DNA of 64,000 nucleotides. Origin: Microbacterium aurantiacum. GTDB taxonomy: Bacteria > Actinomycetota > Actinomycetes > Actinomycetales > Microbacteriaceae. The position numbers and the translations under genes were made by a program. The notes under the pieces are model-generated. The model had not been told where the DNA came from, did no database searches, and saw only the letters and a list, made by a program, of their open reading frames with translations. The number at the start of each line of letters is the position of its first letter. Position 1 is the first letter of the stretch. Location of the stretch: the NCBI RefSeq assembly GCF_002872075.1, contig NZ_PGGU01000004.1, positions 1-64,000 on the forward strand, in the 5' to 3' direction. Of this stretch, positions 4,593-49,093 are shown in pieces.

Positions 4593-5615
4593 TCACACCT
4601 TCAGGGGTCGGGCGTCGAGGGGGTCGAGAGTCTTCTGCGTGAGACGGAGCAGCGTCGATGCCGGATCGAGGGGATCCTGCGGCGCGAGCGCTCGCAGCAG
4701 GTCGACGCCGTCGATCCCGGCTTCGCGCAGGGCGGCGACCTCAGCGGGATTCAGGCCGACGGGCGTCGGGCCGTTGCCCATGTCGGTGCCGTAGAGCACG
4801 GTGCCCCCGGCGGCGTGGAAGCGGCGCACGTTGTCCAGTGCCCGTACACGGTCCGCTCCGTCGTGGATCGCGAGCGTGGAGATCCAGGAGACGGATGCCG
4901 CCTGCGCGGCGATCTCATCGTCAGTGAGGCGTTCAGTGAACGGTGCGTGCGCGAGCATGCGGACACCGAGTCGTGCCGCGCGCTGCGCCTCGCCATCTCC
5001 CTCGGCGTGCGCGACCACCGGCAGGCCACGGCCAGCCGCGAGCACGACGATCGTGCGGAGGGTCTCGTCGCCGAAGACGGGGCCGGCTGTGCTGTTGCAG
5101 GCGACCTTGATGACGGATGCTCCGGCATCCGCCATCTCGGTGATCACCGCCTCGGCGTCCGAGATGGTCGCGATCTCACGCCACGACCCGGCCGGCGCCC
5201 AGTCGCGGTCCGATGGGTATCCGCCCGACGCGGTCAGGAACGCCCCCGCGAACTCGATGCGGCACGATCCCCCCGCGTGCGAGGTCGAAAAAGCATCCGA
5301 AAAGGGCGATTCCGATGCGTTTTCGACCTCGCGGAAAGGCGCAGATGTACTTTTGGCCCCGCTACGCGCGTCAGCGGCGAGGGCGCGCAGCACGCTGGGG
5401 TTCCCGCCGAGGTCGATCACACGCCCGAGCGTGGAGTGGGCGAGGAGCGACGAGTCGACGAGTTGCAGGTGCACGTGATGGTCGGTGAAGCCGCCGACGA
5501 TGACGCCGTCGAGCCGGGGGAGGTCGGCGGGCGGCCGCTCGTCGCGCAGCAGCATCCGGTCGTCGAGGATGCCGTCGCGCAATCCTTCGCCGTCGAAGAA
5601 CGTGGCGGCCTGCAT
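4593..5615 (-). CDS. Metal-dependent amidohydrolase, candidate N-formylkynurenine formamidase
   Basis: About 340 aa starting at MQAATFFDGEG; its ATG shares one base with the kynA stop (TGATG). Visible metal-site features of the amidohydrolase superfamily are FTDHHVHLQL (HxH), the lysine in GASVIKVACNST, His in VVAHAEGDG and MLAHAPF, and a late Asp in VLYGTDMGNG. No usual kynurenine formamidase (cyclase-like kynB) lies in the run, and this gene sits exactly between kynA and kynU, so it may do that step; this is inference. A segment of about 30 residues (from about SGAKSTSAPFREVE to TSHAGGSC) looks like an insertion and is encoded by a palindromic element at 5279-5332. The longer frame running upstream into kynA is not real. 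Confidence 0.85.
   Translation of the reverse strand: MQAATFFDGEGLRDGILDDRMLLRDERPPADLPRLDGVIVGGFTDHHVHLQLVDSSLLAHSTLGRVIDLGGNPSVLRALAADARSGAKSTSAPFREVENASESPFSDAFSTSHAGGSCRIEFAGAFLTASGGYPSDRDWAPAGSWREIATISDAEAVITEMADAGASVIKVACNSTAGPVFGDETLRTIVVLAAGRGLPVVAHAEGDGEAQRAARLGVRMLAHAPFTERLTDDEIAAQAASVSWISTLAIHDGADRVRALDNVRRFHAAGGTVLYGTDMGNGPTPVGLNPAEVAALREAGIDGVDLLRALAPQDPLDPASTLLRLTQKTLDPLDARPLKV
5279..5332. repeat. Palindromic element inserted in frame in the amidohydrolase gene
   Basis: Arms 5279-5297 (GCGAGGTCGAAAAAGCATC) and 5314-5332 are inverted copies with one mismatch in 19 bp, separated by a 16-nt loop. The 54-bp unit is a multiple of three and is translated. Its low-complexity product (Ser, Glu, Phe rich) interrupts an otherwise normal domain between AADAR and RIEFAGAFL. 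Confidence 0.7.
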
Positions 5616-6469
5616 CAGCTGCCGATCGAGGTGCGCACGGTGTACAGCTCGGGGAAGAAGGTCAGTTCCAGGGCGCGCTGCAGGAAGCCGGCGCCGCTGG
5701 ACCCTCCGGTGCCGACCTTCATGCCGATGGTCCTGGTCACCGTCTTGAGGTGACGGAAGCGCCAGAACTGGAAGTTGTCCTCGAGGTCGACGAGGTCTTC
5801 GCATGCCTCGTACAGATCCCAGTGCTCCTGGTGGTTCTCGTAGATCTCGCGGATCGCGGGCACGAGGGCGGGGGATTCGCGGTACGGCAGCCGCACGTCG
5901 CGCTCGAGGATCTCGGCCGGGATCGGAAGTCCACGTCGTGCGGCGAAGCGGAGGAACTCGTCGTAGACGGTGGGCTTCTCCCACTCGGCGGTGAGCAGGG
6001 CGAGGTTGGCCGGATGGTCGGCGAAGACCTGCAGCATCCGCTCGTTCTTGTTGCCCAGGGCGAACTCGACGGCCCGGTACTGCACCGACTGGAAGCCGGA
6101 GGAGTTGCCGAGCGCACCGCGGAACTGGGCGTACTCGGTGGGCGTGAGGGTGGCGAGCACCGACCACTGCTGGGTCATCACGTCCTGGATCTTCTTGACG
6201 CGTGCGACCCGCTTCAGCGCCTCGCGCAGGTCGTCACTGGCGAGCAGCTCGCGCGCGGAGGAGAGCTCGTGCAGCAGCTGCTTCAGCCAGAGCTCGGTCG
6301 TCTGGTGCTGGATGATGAACAGCAGTTCGTCGTGGTGCTCGGGGCTCGAGACCGGATGCTGCGCGGTGAGCAGCCGATCCAGGTCGAGGTAGGACCCGTA
6401 GGTCATCTTGCCCGAGAGGTCGGTGACGATCCCCGTCTCGAGTTCGCGCTCGTTCTGCTCGGTGCTCAT
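5615..6469 (-). CDS. kynA: Tryptophan 2,3-dioxygenase
   Basis: Haem dioxygenase opening the indole ring of L-tryptophan to N-formylkynurenine, first step of the kynurenine pathway. Hallmarks of the 284-aa protein: MTYGSYLDLDRLL, the substrate-binding HDELLFIIQHQTTELWLKQL helix, the FQSVQYRAVEF segment, the axial haem histidine in FRHLKTVTRTIG, and the closing loop GTGGSSGAGFL. Length is typical of bacterial TDO. It is preceded by its own promoter-like boxes that place the transcript start at or very near the ATG, so it can be expressed apart from the upstream amidase genes. Confidence 0.96.
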   Translation of the reverse strand: MSTEQNERELETGIVTDLSGKMTYGSYLDLDRLLTAQHPVSSPEHHDELLFIIQHQTTELWLKQLLHELSSARELLASDDLREALKRVARVKKIQDVMTQQWSVLATLTPTEYAQFRGALGNSSGFQSVQYRAVEFALGNKNERMLQVFADHPANLALLTAEWEKPTVYDEFLRFAARRGLPIPAEILERDVRLPYRESPALVPAIREIYENHQEHWDLYEACEDLVDLEDNFQFWRFRHLKTVTRTIGMKVGTGGSSGAGFLQRALELTFFPELYTVRTSIGS

Positions 6470-8452: not shown

Positions 8453-9480
8453 CAGCTGTTCTCCAGCGCCGGCTGCTGCTGGGTGATGCAGTGGATGCCG
8501 CCGCCGCGGTCGAACAGCGGGCGGGCGTCGACGGTCACCACGCGGCGGCCCGGGTAGGCGTCGGCGAGGATCGACCGCGCCGCCGCATCCGCCTGCTCGT
8601 CACCGAACCCGCATGCCACGACGCCGTCGTTCGTGACGAGGTGGTTCACGTAGCTCCAGTCGACGAAACCCTCGTCGTCGCGCAGCGTCGTCGGCGCAGG
8701 AAGGTCGATGATCTCGAATCGGCGGCCGGCGGCATCCGTCTGCTGCTCGAGATGCGCGCGGAGTTCGCGCGTCACCGCGTGGTCCGGGTGCGCCGGGTCC
8801 CGCTGGTCGTGCAGGAGGATGTGCCCGGGCGCGGTGATCGTCGCGACGATGTCGACGTGCCCGTTCGTGCCGAACTCGTCGTAGTCGCGGGTGAGGCCGC
8901 GCGGCAGCCAGACGGCCTTCGTCGCGCCGATCGTGCGCAGCATCTCGGCCTCGACGCGCTGCCTGTCGGCATAGGGGTTGCGGCGTGGGTCGAGCTGCAC
9001 GGTCTCGGTGAGCAGCACGGTGCCCTCGCCGTCGACATGGATGCCGCCGCCCTCGTTCACGAGCACCGAGCTGACGAGTTCCGCACCGACTGCGCCCGCG
9101 ATGAGGCGAGCGTGCTGTGCGGCCTTGTGCCACTGTGCCCAAGCGGGCGCGCCCCAGCCGTTGAACACCCAGTCGACCGCGCCGAGCCGGCCCTCGTCGA
9201 CGACGAAGGTGGGGCCGGAGTCGCGCATCCAGAACTCATCGACCGGCGCTTCCACGATCTCGATGCTGCCGCTGAGCATGCGCCGGGCACGCGCCGTTTC
9301 GCTGGGATCGACGAGCATGGCGACCGGCTCGAACTCGGCGACGGCGTGCGCGACTGCTGTCCATGTGGAGTAGCCCTCTTCGCGCTCCGACGCCGTCTCG
9401 CCGAGAGTGATCCCCTCGGCGGGGAACGCCATCCAGGTGCGTTCGTGGCGTGCGGTCTCGGCGGGCATGCGCCAGTTCAT
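8452..9480 (-). CDS. Agmatine deiminase family protein
   Basis: Guanidino-group-modifying enzyme of the Porphyromonas-type peptidyl-arginine deiminase/agmatine deiminase family, 342 aa. Signature parts: MNWRMPAETARHERTWMAFP at the start, DEFWMRDSGPTFV (guanidine-binding Asp), NEGGGIHVDGEGTVLLTE, and the nucleophilic cysteine in GGGIHCITQQQP at the C-terminus. The start at 9480 has GAGGAG 5 nt upstream; the longer frame reaching 9558 runs into the divergent TetR promoter. Agmatine is the classic substrate; with the amidase and a nearby PLP decarboxylase this suggests a polyamine- or arginine-derived amine pathway, unproven. Confidence 0.9.
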   Translation of the reverse strand: MNWRMPAETARHERTWMAFPAEGITLGETASEREEGYSTWTAVAHAVAEFEPVAMLVDPSETARARRMLSGSIEIVEAPVDEFWMRDSGPTFVVDEGRLGAVDWVFNGWGAPAWAQWHKAAQHARLIAGAVGAELVSSVLVNEGGGIHVDGEGTVLLTETVQLDPRRNPYADRQRVEAEMLRTIGATKAVWLPRGLTRDYDEFGTNGHVDIVATITAPGHILLHDQRDPAHPDHAVTRELRAHLEQQTDAAGRRFEIIDLPAPTTLRDDEGFVDWSYVNHLVTNDGVVACGFGDEQADAAARSILADAYPGRRVVTVDARPLFDRGGGIHCITQQQPALENS

Positions 9481-45812: not shown

Positions 45813-47096
45813 ATGAAGCTCACGACCCCGGCCACGCAATCGGGCTACATCCTCAACGGCTCATCCGTGCAGTCGCCCGGCTGGCCGCCGCCCGAGAAGC
45901 CGCGCAAGGAGCCCGCCAAGGCCCGCGGGGTCGTCATCGCGGCTGTCGTCCTGGTCGTCATCATCGGCTCCGCGATCGCGCTGTCCGTGAGCGTACTGTC
46001 GCCGTCGGCCAGGGACATCGAGATCGCATCGACCTCGGGGATCGTCGACATCGGCGGTGAGGATGTCGCGGTCCTCGTCTACCAGGACTCCTCGCGACCC
46101 GGGCTCTTCGTCTCGGGCTTCCAGACGCGGGTCACCGCGATCCGCGCCTCCGACGGCGAGCAGCTGTGGGATCAGCAGCTCAACGACGATCTGATGGGCG
46201 ATGCCGTCGTGCTCGCCGGCGACTCGAAACTCGTGTACGTCGGCAGCGACGACGGCCTCGTCATCCTGGATGCCACGACCGGCGCCGTGCGCTCCCGGGG
46301 CCTCGAGATCGCCGGACTCGGCGCCGACGCGGTGCTCGCCGCCAGCGCCTACGGATACGACGCCGAGGCGAACGCCGTGGTCGCCCTCGCCGGAACCGGG
46401 CAGGTCATGCAGCTGCCCGTCGGACAGGAGCAGGCGACTCCCGCCGATGCGGCGGTCGCCGGGCGCTGGGAGGACGTGCTGAACTCCGGGCCCTTCTACG
46501 ACGACACGGTCCTCGTCGACCAGGTCGAACTCGCCGTGTCCGGAGAAGGCGCCACCTACGAGGTGGAGTCCGTTGCCGAGGCAGTCCAGCGTGATGCACT
46601 CACCGTCACCTCCGCCGAAGGGCAGGTCGTATTCCGGACCGAGCTCGTCGACATGTCGATCCTGCCGGTCACCGACATCGGCCCCCGACGCGGCGTGATG
46701 CTCGATACCGGTCAGTTCCTCGACGGCGATTTCAGCGACATCGACGAGGAAGACATCCAGGCGCTCATCGAGAACGTGATGGGCGCCGACGGGAAGATGC
46801 CGCCGGCGCCCGCCGGTCTCGGGCAGGGGTTCCTGCTCGTGCAGCACAAGGAGTCGGTCAACGCCGAACTGATGGCGCTGAGCAGCATCGATGCGGAAAC
46901 CGGCCGGATCGTCGACACCGTCGAGATGAAGGTCGACGCCCTGCGCGCTCTGACCGGCCCCGAGGGGACGACGGCCGTGATCGCCGCCGCCCCCGATGCC
47001 TGGCGGCCGAACACCATGGTGGTCCTGCAACCCGACGGGACCCTCCGGGTGGTCGAGGTCGGCACACTGCCCTGGTGGCAGCGCCTCTTCACCTAA
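45813..47096 (+). CDS. Membrane-anchored propeller-like protein (PA2928-like)
   Basis: A 427-aa protein with a short cytoplasmic head, one helix (GVVIAAVVLVVIIGSAIALSVSVL) and an extracellular domain of beta-propeller type: FQTRVTAIRASDGEQLWDQQLNDDLMGDAVVLAGDSKLVYVGSDDGLVILDATTGAVRSRG. It resembles what databases call PA2928 family; function unknown. AGGAGGCACGAC precedes the ATG. Its end overlaps the ABC-F gene by 4 bp. Confidence 0.75.
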   Translation: MKLTTPATQSGYILNGSSVQSPGWPPPEKPRKEPAKARGVVIAAVVLVVIIGSAIALSVSVLSPSARDIEIASTSGIVDIGGEDVAVLVYQDSSRPGLFVSGFQTRVTAIRASDGEQLWDQQLNDDLMGDAVVLAGDSKLVYVGSDDGLVILDATTGAVRSRGLEIAGLGADAVLAASAYGYDAEANAVVALAGTGQVMQLPVGQEQATPADAAVAGRWEDVLNSGPFYDDTVLVDQVELAVSGEGATYEVESVAEAVQRDALTVTSAEGQVVFRTELVDMSILPVTDIGPRRGVMLDTGQFLDGDFSDIDEEDIQALIENVMGADGKMPPAPAGLGQGFLLVQHKESVNAELMALSSIDAETGRIVDTVEMKVDALRALTGPEGTTAVIAAAPDAWRPNTMVVLQPDGTLRVVEVGTLPWWQRLFT

Positions 47097-48778
47097 TCCA
47101 CCTCGCTGAGCACCCCCTCCGCGTCGATCTCGAGCGTGAGGTCGAGGTCGAGTCGCTTCAGGAACGCATCGTCGTGGCTGACCACGAGCACGGCGCCGCG
47201 ATAGGCACGGAGCGTTTCGACGAGCTGACCGACCGTGTCGAGGTCGAGGTTGTTCGTCGGCTCGTCCAGCACCACGAGGTGCGGGGCCGGATCTGCGAGC
47301 AGCACCCGTGCCAATGCGACGCGGAAGCGCTCGCCGCCCGACAGGCCGGCCACCGGCCGGTCCGCCGTGCCGCCGCGGATGAGGAAGCGCGCCAGCCGGT
47401 TGCGCAGCTCCTTCTCGGGAACCTGCGGTGCCGCCTCGGCGACGTTCTCGATCACCGAGCGGCTCTCATCGAGGCCATCGATGCGCTGAGGCAGGTAGCC
47501 GACCCGCTCGGTGTGGGAGTGCGCCCACGTTCGCGGTTCATAACTCAGGAGATCCGGCCGAGATTCGCCGGAACCAGCTCGTTCGCGCCCGATCCGGTCC
47601 ATTTCTCCTGAGTTGTGAACAGCCGCCGCCGCGCTCTCGACCAGTCGCTGCAGCAGGGTCGTCTTGCCTGCACCGTTCCGCCCGATCAACGCGACGCGCT
47701 CGGGCCCCTGGATGACCCACGACCGCTCACCGTCGCCGACAGTCGCGATGCGGCGGCTGCGTGACACCTGCGGATCCGGCAGCTCGATCTTCATCGAGTC
47801 GTCGTCGCGGATCCGTCGGCCGGCCTGGTCGAGGGCCGCGCGGGCCGCCTCCTCCTTCTCTCCGACCTCGACCCGCAGCCTTCCGGCTGAGACCTCGGCA
47901 GCCATCTTCCGGCCGTGCGCCACGATCTTCGGCACCCGCTTCTCGATCTCCGCCTTGCGTGCGGTTCTGGCTCGGTGCGCCAGCTTCGTCTCGGCCTCGA
48001 TCCGCTGCCGCTTCTCCTTGCGGAGTGCTCGGGCGGCGGAGACCTCGGCCTGCTTCGCGGCACCCTGCTCGGCATCCAGCCATGCCCGCCATTCGGAGTA
48101 CGGCCCGCCGAACACGCTCAGTGTGTGCGCATACAGCTCGGCGGTGTCATCCATCAGCTCGAGCAGAGCGACGTCGTGACTGACGACGATGAGGGTCCCC
48201 TTCCAGGAGCGGATCATGGCGGCGAGCTTCGCCCGCGCGTCGCGATCGAGGTTGTTGGTCGGTTCGTCGAGCAGCGTGATCGGCGCTCGCCGAAGACGGA
48301 TGCCCGCGGTGGCGACGAGCACGGCTTCGCCCCCGGAGAGCTCTCCGACCCGGCGGTCCAGGAACGACGGGTCGAGGCCGGCTTCGGCGAGGGAGGCCTC
48401 GGCGCGCGCCTCGATGTCCCAGTCGTCTCCGACCGCGTCGAAATGCGCCGGGTCGACGTCGCCGGCGGTGATCGCGCGGACCGCGTCGAGCTGGTCGGCG
48501 ACACCGAGCAGCTCGGCGACGCGGCGTTCGACGTCGAGTGTCAGCCGTTGTGGCAGATACGCGACATCACCGGTGGCGTGGGCCGTGCCGGACGTCGGCT
48601 CGAGCTCGCCGGCGATCAATCGCAGCAGGGTGGACTTGCCGGAGCCGTTGCGCCCGACGAGCCCGGTGCGGCCGGTCCCGAAGGAGCCGGTGAGATGGTC
48701 GAGCGCGGTCGAGCCGTCCGGCCAGGTGAAGGTGAGGCGGTCGAGGGTGACCGGTGCGTGGGTGGTTGGTGATGACAT
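47093..48778 (-). CDS. ABC-F family ATPase with an in-frame repeat insertion
   Basis: A cytosolic ABC-F protein of 561 aa with two ATPase domains. Domain 1: GLVGRNGSGKSTLLRLI, LSGGEAVLVATAGI, TLLDEPTNNLDRDA. Linker: RKAEIEKRVPKIVAHGRKMAAEVSAGRLRVEVGEKEE (residues about 265-300). Domain 2: ALIGRNGAGKTTLLQRLVE, LSGGERFRVALARVLL, VVLDEPTNNLDLDT. ABC-F proteins act on ribosomes and may give antibiotic tolerance. Just after the second Walker A, about 30 residues (VHNSGEMDRIGRERAG, then SGESRPDLLSYEPR) interrupt the domain and correspond to a palindromic element. Confidence 0.92.
   Translation of the reverse strand: MSSPTTHAPVTLDRLTFTWPDGSTALDHLTGSFGTGRTGLVGRNGSGKSTLLRLIAGELEPTSGTAHATGDVAYLPQRLTLDVERRVAELLGVADQLDAVRAITAGDVDPAHFDAVGDDWDIEARAEASLAEAGLDPSFLDRRVGELSGGEAVLVATAGIRLRRAPITLLDEPTNNLDRDARAKLAAMIRSWKGTLIVVSHDVALLELMDDTAELYAHTLSVFGGPYSEWRAWLDAEQGAAKQAEVSAARALRKEKRQRIEAETKLAHRARTARKAEIEKRVPKIVAHGRKMAAEVSAGRLRVEVGEKEEAARAALDQAGRRIRDDDSMKIELPDPQVSRSRRIATVGDGERSWVIQGPERVALIGRNGAGKTTLLQRLVESAAAAVHNSGEMDRIGRERAGSGESRPDLLSYEPRTWAHSHTERVGYLPQRIDGLDESRSVIENVAEAAPQVPEKELRNRLARFLIRGGTADRPVAGLSGGERFRVALARVLLADPAPHLVVLDEPTNNLDLDTVGQLVETLRAYRGAVLVVSHDDAFLKRLDLDLTLEIDAEGVLSEVD
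47536..47620. repeat. Palindromic element inserted in the ABC-F gene
   Basis: GTTCATAACTCAGGAGAT (47536-47553) and the inverted arm 47603-47620 (reverse complement GTTCACAACTCAGGAGAA) match in 16 of 18 positions and flank a 49-nt centre. The unit is translated without breaking the frame. Confidence 0.7.
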
Positions 48779-49093
48779 GGAGCGTCTCCCGGGGTGTTCG
48801 GGGTGCGCTGACGCCGGGCATCCGGCGACGTCGAAGAATCGACGCCGGAAGGCGGATGCGGCCGTGTGAGTCGGCGATCGTCGGGTCAGCGCGCGGAAAG
48901 AAGAGCGCGGAGGCGACGGATCAGATCAAAGGACTTCCAGACACGGCGGACAGGACTCCATGACGATACCCGGGGCGTGTCGGCCTTCGCAACCCCCGGG
49001 CGTGTCGCGGTCGCTCTCGTCGTGTCCGGGGCATCCGGCATCCGTTCACCATCTGGTATCCCCAGCGTCACGGGACGGCGTTAGGGTGACCGC
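48779..49093. other. Leader region of the ABC-F gene and upstream spacer
   Basis: A 315-bp stretch without a firm gene. On the minus strand it holds a possible short frame ending LIRRLRALLSAR-stop at 48886, then a bulged hairpin (48822-48848: CCGGCG-ACG-TCGA pairing with TCGACGCCGG) and the ribosome site GGGAGACG of the ABC-F gene. The plus-strand side carries TAGGGT (49082-49087), a likely -10 for the EEP gene. Confidence 0.5.
48886..49071 (-). CDS. Candidate regulatory leader peptide with an RLR motif
   Basis: A 61-codon GTG frame, or 51 codons from an inner ATG (MPDAPDTTR), ending VWKSFDLIRRLRALLSAR. R-L-R resembles the +X+ motif at which macrolide-bound ribosomes stall in erm leaders, and the frame is placed between promoter side and an ABC-F gene with a hairpin after it. 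Weak points: no clear ribosome site and an uncertain start. Confidence 0.25.
   Translation of the reverse strand: MTLGIPDGERMPDAPDTTRATATRPGVAKADTPRVSSWSPVRRVWKSFDLIRRLRALLSAR

Follow-up and report, generated by a model that had tools for sequence, protein, structure and literature searches.

The question raised by this locus is whether an inverted repeat inside an ABC-F protein gene of Microbacterium aurantiacum is a genuine genetic element and, if so, of what kind. The stretch of DNA analyzed, referred to here as the window, comprises 64,000 nucleotides. The original prediction placed the repeat after the second Walker A motif and before the YLPQRIDGLDE segment, and suggested that families of coding palindromes may be active in this genome. 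The repeat was present, and its ends coincide with those of the family described below, whose symmetry stops 7 bases outside ACTC; in the minus-strand coding sequence it does lie between these two landmarks (Table 1). The window arms (47533 to 47552 and 47604 to 47623) are 20 nt long, 90% complementary, and 51 nt apart, and the second arm is read in the ABC-F frame as GTT CAC AAC TCA GGA GA (V H N S G). By itself, this dyad is borderline against chance: with 16 of 18 pairs and a gap of 40 to 60, the window held 4 matches, and at least one match was found in 7 of 40 shuffled windows (10 matches in all). We nevertheless count it as real because a genome-wide family of such dyads exists.

Table 1. 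Positions of the dyad, its parts, and its host gene in the window
Feature	Position	Strand	Basis
Whole dyad element, 85 bp here	47536..47620		71-nt core span plus 7 on each side; family arm symmetry
First arm, GTTCATAACTCAGGAGA	47536..47552	+	Window dyad; family arms
Second arm, GTTCACAACTCAGGAGA on the minus strand	47604..47620	-	Window dyad; reading of the ABC-F frame
Centre, 51 nt	47553..47603		Shared across the family as A/T windows at intervals of about 10 bp rather than as sequence
ABC-F protein gene, 561 aa, with the dyad in a loop of variable length	47093..48778	-	Coding sequence; comparison of orthologues

Searching genomes with the pattern ACTCNGGA-N38..68-TCCNGAGT, with the reversed pattern as control, recovered 11 dyads in the same genome (G000; 3.83 Mb), compared to 0 with the reversed pattern. 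Fifteen relatives, picked for having arm matches, held 201 dyads compared to 5 reversed-pattern controls, counted per strand (3 to 29 dyads each). The genome-wide search called for by the original prediction thus yielded further copies; three other exact AACTCAGGAGA matches in the same genome were not dyads. The single arm 12-mer occurred in 67 of 366 genomes of the genus, which is most likely Microbacterium, judging by the named proteins closest to the ABC-F product, and a stricter dyad pattern in 22 of 398 genomes of the bacterial family, representing 9 of 85 genera. We conclude that the window dyad is one copy of a dispersed family of roughly 86-letter paired DNA sites. Among the matches listed in titles and abstracts of the open-licence literature, no earlier description of this family was found.

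Placement within genomes bears on the idea of coding palindromes. Using a simple purpose-made gene caller, and counting orthologous copies of sister genomes as well, we classified 121 copies, of which 106 were intergenic (46 convergent, 47 tandem, and 13 divergent) and 15 lay inside genes. Copies prefer gene ends, with few divergent placements. Reading phases of the in-gene copies, also named for comparison in the original prediction, included all three (6, 2, and 7 copies). Therefore, the predicted repeated family stands, but its description as coding does not. The Rickettsia palindromic element is conserved and inserted mainly in genes, in frame. That the dyads are coding palindromes of this type, spreading by adding peptide segments to proteins, agrees with the stop-free reading frames that contain the 15 in-gene copies and the window copy; it is largely refuted by the intergenic majority, the three reading phases, and a centre that is not conserved, and we regard it as exceedingly improbable.

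Across the family, two inverted arms of about 17 bp (GTTCAYAACTCMGGAGA) bound an element of about 86 bp. Symmetry between halves extends from -7 to about +9 relative to ACTC with a sharp outer edge, and the arm core AACTCMGGA is constant, while the outer bases vary by lineage. The core span was 71 to 72 nt in 71 of 76 copies, with 54 to 84 allowed. In 184 distinct dyads, spans fell into classes of 61 to 62 (8 dyads), 69 to 74 (117), 82 to 86 (39), 93 to 94 (5), 105 to 106 (3), and longer (10), with odd spans of 41 and 57; those above 84 are underrepresented, most loci having been retrieved with the 54-to-84 pattern. Genome G159 had the 61-to-62 span in seven of nine copies, and a cluster in G747 also showed arm distances of 44 to 45, 54 to 56, 67 to 68, 79, 89, and 100 bases, with some larger. 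Span classes differ by steps of about 11 bp. The arm spacing is a whole number of helical turns, and loops of 6, 7, or 8 turns are proposed.

Composition of the centre is also periodic. In 60 non-redundant 72-nt copies, A/T content peaked at positions 9 to 11, 20 to 21, and 29 to 31 and at their mirror images, with a period of 10.2 bp (power 0.444; flanking DNA, 0.009; maximum of 2000 shuffles, 0.025). The centre sequences themselves were seldom alike: among 676 within-genome pairs, 10 reached a similarity score of at least 18 (9 in G182 and 1 in G006). The G182 pairs mostly shared a common central motif, and one pair, 11 kb apart, was alike over most of the centre; the G006 pair is 164 bp apart, and two more G006 copies, 1.3 kb apart, also look alike. 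Nearby copies can thus share a centre, whereas distant ones in the set compared do not. Since distant centres differ yet A/T windows recur every 10.2 bp, the centre seems to be kept as DNA bendable on one face, in a tight loop or wrap, rather than as sequence. Comparison with phages and plasmids gave no source for a centre (best match E = 0.08). The 84-nt class carries a central palindrome, about CCSCGNRATYNCGSGG, which is strongest in G182; there (loci L243 to L257) it is common to the copies and could be a third binding site.

Folding and pairing were also considered as constraints. A hairpin in the centre has little support, as centres fold hardly better than their shuffles (mean z = -0.25; standard error of the mean, 0.14; 7 of 87 below -2). 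Agreement between the two arms of one element far exceeded that of random elements, and most of it was gone after within-genome shuffling, so that stem pairing was rejected as the constraint on the arms; within-element agreement appears to reflect lineage-specific arm types. These results bear on a role at the RNA or transcriptional level, with dyads serving as bidirectional terminators or as operators of nearby genes. The share of convergent placements (46 of the 106 intergenic copies, compared to 15 of the window's 63 pairs of neighbouring genes) is in keeping with such a role. However, the 13 divergent placements make promoter operators unlikely as a rule, the little extra arm pairing and the poor folding of the centres speak against an RNA structure, helical spacing and A/T phasing are not explained by RNA, and no Rfam match was found at E values up to 1 in window positions 47000 to 48900. 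We consider this role highly improbable.

Rates of change were compared between arms and centres. In 15 orthologous pairs from G103 and G125, 17 of 510 arm positions differed, compared to 63 of 772 centre positions (P = 0.0004). These pairs were found by their flanks (15 of 16 G103 copies, one being without an orthologue), with the flank count of locus L090 inflated by rearrangement; pairs found by pattern are unsuitable for rates, since in both genomes the search pattern already determines the bulk of the 16 core positions. Six G015/G016 pairs, in which this bias remains, differed at 3 of 204 arm and 10 of 309 centre positions, without significance (P = 0.26). We conclude that arms change more slowly than centres, which speaks for selection in place. 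At L284 of G125 (about 9050 to 9170), compared with L090 of G103, both arms of one copy had changed alike (AACTCCGGAG in G103 and GACTTCGGAG in G125), a concerted change.

The dyad in the ABC-F gene occupies the same place in six genomes: G000, G015, G016, G103, G125, and G147, the last with one arm decayed. The ABC-F proteins of the carriers are 80 to 82% identical to that encoded in the window. Between lineages, these copies, which were found by their arms, were identical at 29 to 32 of 34 arm positions and 18 to 25 of 51 centre positions (G147 excluded); the G103/G125 pair showed the reverse trend (3 of 34 arm and 2 of 51 centre positions differing). Several orthologous ABC-F genes, for example at L143 and L145, are without the insert segment. 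The original prediction had named as contrary outcomes the lack of any other copy in the genome and the presence of the segment in every ABC-F orthologue, and neither was found. These observations are most simply read as a single old, inherited insertion, the arms of which have probably been kept as DNA. Codon rarity was considered as a sign of constraint on the arms and dropped, since the centre is equally rare (mean relative codon usage of 0.38 in arms, 0.38 in the centre, and 0.52 in the gene).

A gain by insertion was observed in G015, where a dyad lies between a stop codon and a start codon; in G016, a close relative, these two codons overlap as TGATG. The insert measures 110 bp (16 + 86 + 8) and is flanked by two copies of CATCAG. 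The uninterrupted site was found in 30 of 30 fetched places, including G016, with at most 2 of 20 mismatches; therefore, the G015 copy is a derived, recent insertion with a 6-bp duplication. A search of 361 genomes, which scored the two best places in each, revealed no donor sharing this centre, and copying from an existing dyad is accordingly not supported for this insert. As to the predicted activity of the family, one recent insertion in a relative speaks for it, but nothing in the M. aurantiacum genome itself does. In G747, locus L133 (14823 to 15122; G747:C1:1704823-1705122) carries three left arms followed by three right arms in steps of about 55 bp; each layer adds 110 to 111 bp, much like the G015 insert in length, as though dyads had entered the centres of other dyads.

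Miniature inverted-repeat elements (MITEs) have inverted arms and duplicate their target on insertion. The dyads resemble them in the inverted arms and in the target duplication CATCAG, in one case (G015 compared to G016). Under this explanation the dyads would be non-autonomous elements whose arms are ends read by some transposase, with the spacing a synaptic need and the nuclease gene described below a passenger. Besides the duplication, the nested arms of G747, the dyad-gene-dyad layout, and the shared centres of nearby copies (the G182 pair at 11 kb and the G006 pair at 164 bp) fit such elements. Unlike MITEs, however, distant copies in the set compared have no common interior, and in the one insertion examined the 16 and 8 bp outside the arms indicate that the arms are not its ends. 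Arms slower to change than centres also weigh against the explanation, and no transposase family was among the 25 most frequent in either flanking-protein scan (126 of 140 scanned). We judge it unlikely.

A candidate partner for the dyads was found beside them. Two dyads of the G000 genome, 1.06 kb apart on contig C7, frame a gene of 303 aa (about 419141 to 420052; L042:1676-2584), and an arm encodes the tail of its product. Thirteen genomes of three genera contained homologues (eight in genus g1, two in g51, and three in g75), with the start codon not fixed in G724 and G002. A dyad or an exact arm lay within 300 bp of the gene in 13 of 13 homologues, 10 of which were seen in loci retrieved because of a dyad or arm match and 3 in dyad-rich g75 regions; dyads or arms were on both sides of the gene in G000, G103, G147, G178, G006, G747, and others. 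A profile search of the 1.58 Mb of fetched sequence (overlaps and the window included) found no homologue beyond these 13, and none was found in 110 control loci (80 ABC-F and 30 empty-site loci). No partner gene lay beside the fetched dyads of G038 (15 of 15), G015 (7 of 7), G016 (6 of 6), or G125 (13 of 14), a result that weighs against the pairing.

At E < 0.01, the homologues matched the Pfam families REase_MTES_1575 (13 of 13), AbiEi_4 (PF13338; 10 of 13), and DUF559 (9 of 13); REase_MTES_1575 scored below the Pfam gathering threshold in the three members shown, as did AbiEi_4 and DUF559 in G103. The PADLOC AbiEi model PDLC02225 matched 11 of 13 members. Invariant residues include E193, D220, E230, D232, H237, D246, and D250. 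The partner is thus predicted to join an AbiEi-type winged helix to an endonuclease domain of the Vsr/DUF559 type in which E, D, H, D, and D residues are invariant. By sequence, no relative of solved structure was found below E = 0.89; viral contigs gave no match to the protein, and plasmids and phages gave three partial, distant ones.

In G000, G103, G147, G178, and G002, the dyad-gene-dyad unit lies between mnhG and an alpha/beta hydrolase gene. In AbiE systems, the neighbour of the AbiEi gene encodes a nucleotidyltransferase toxin, AbiEii. Both neighbours are present in G125 without the unit that G103 has; at this place in G125 (L283, about 5723 to 5795) there is a different palindrome (CCTTTCGAATCGC...GCGATTCGAAGGG). 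From the location of the gene beside dyads we infer the pairing of dyads and nuclease.

Chromosomal position was examined in relation to both the replication origin and the partner gene. In six g1 genomes, dyads lay mainly in the origin half (mean normalised distance to dnaA, 0.22 to 0.30; P = 0.0002 to 0.017), in tests in which related genome pairs are not independent and G125 enters with 13 of 14 copies. In two g75 genomes, dyads lay in a short stretch near the antipode. An integron-like array was considered for the g75 cluster and rejected, as the intervening called genes look like ordinary core genes by sequence. Wherever the partner gene was located, it lay inside the dyad cluster, with a median dyad-to-gene distance of 15 kb (G501), 16 kb (G747), or 384 kb (G103). 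The gene is near dnaA in genus g1; in G103, 69 kb separate the two, and dyads clustered at least as tightly around dnaA (mean test, P = 0.0002) as around the gene (median test, P = 0.006). Spread around the partner gene would explain both the g1 and the g75 patterns, with gene and dnaA indistinguishable in G103.

These positions could also be those of chromosome-organising sites, at which an architectural protein of the MatP or Noc type binds phased dyads and structures one domain. Sites of the MatP/matS type are confined to one chromosomal domain, and the origin-half dyads of six g1 genomes and the antipode stretch of two g75 genomes would suit this, as would the slow change of the arms and the few divergent placements. 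However, the region varies between genera and contains the partner gene where that gene was located, and the arm 12-mer is present in just 67 of the 366 genomes of the genus. Such a role therefore seems to us quite improbable.

Among short repeats that persist over long times alongside a single-copy partner gene, REPINs with their RAYTs are the best known. In Pseudomonas fluorescens SBW25, 430 doublets were described (PMC3116915). REPINs resemble the dyads in having two inverted, conserved ends (about 16 bp, compared to the dyad arms of about 17 bp), a spacer of set length, and even the 71-bp spacing; they are likewise scattered mainly between genes, with a partner gene that has the same elements beside it (PMC3116915). 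They differ in their partner, that of the dyads being an AbiEi helix with a Vsr-like nuclease, and in number, with tens of dyads (3 to 29 in 16 genomes) compared to hundreds of REPINs; the dyad centre, moreover, is helically phased without a spacer hairpin. The Y1 (RAYT) transposase PF01797 was found in 0 of 22 dyad-bearing genomes, compared to matches in 5 of 14 reference genomes searched as a control. REPIN/RAYT membership is ruled out by this result, and the spacer hairpin and copy number fail as well. REPIN-RAYT is therefore the closest known system, of the same logic, but the dyads are not a member of it.

The two domains of the partner also have known relatives. In the AbiE system, cooperative binding of two AbiEi monomers to inverted repeats bends the DNA (PMC7319586). 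The likeness lies in the winged-helix family of this type IV antitoxin and in one AbiEi monomer per repeat arm, with bending, as is proposed for the dyads; the differences are that AbiE repeats are 23 bp, 3 or 13 bp apart, at one promoter, whereas the arms of a dyad are separated by six to eight turns and occur at many places, and that the helix of the dyad partner is fused to an endonuclease-like domain (PMC7319586). The partner belongs to the same Vsr/DUF559/REase_MTES_1575 domain family as, and this family is named from, a protein of Microbacterium testaceum, a far larger polypeptide that also contains helicase and HEPN domains; the portion of the source available to us makes no mention of dispersed DNA sites for REase_MTES_1575 domains (PMC3710099).

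Taken together, the constant architecture, the phased centres, the slowly changing arms, the observed insertion, the association with the gene, and the AbiEi precedent lead us to the reading that we hold to be probable, namely, that the dyads are paired binding or landing sites of the predicted winged-helix nuclease, with the arms paired across a bent loop and the protein probably helping the sites to spread. Each arm would be bound by the winged helix of one putative partner monomer, and two monomers would meet over a sharply bent loop of 6, 7, or 8 turns. The putative endonuclease would let the dyad-gene-dyad unit and the short dyads enter new places, often near the partner gene. In the ABC-F gene, an old insertion may have come to rest in a tolerant loop with the frame unbroken, its arms kept in several species. 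This suggests that the dyads and the nuclease gene form a little-known genome-colonising system that may work in a REPIN-like manner with different parts. A further proposal, tentative and in our estimate doubtful, is that they represent a class of genome-colonising system not described in the literature consulted, in which looped sites of double-stranded DNA are written or spread in the surroundings of a nuclease gene by its own winged-helix, Vsr-type product, with the sites kept by selection in place and at least some new sites having centres that were not copied from an existing site.

If this class exists, separate palindrome families could accompany other AbiEi/DUF559-type genes, one for each. 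The same REPIN-like logic built from unrelated parts would mean that such a way of life arose more than once, and a group of nuclease-like genes that lacks an explanation would gain a role that can be tested. In addition, since the phase of the centre is kept while its sequence is not, such a system offers a way to measure, under natural conditions in cells, how DNA bends and what its helical repeat is.

A separate short palindrome lies elsewhere in the window (5279 to 5332), with 23-nt arms of the GCGAGGTCGAAAAAGCATCCGAA type and an 8-nt loop. The window dyad arms are unlike it, in agreement with the distinct arm type claimed originally, and it possibly belongs to another family.
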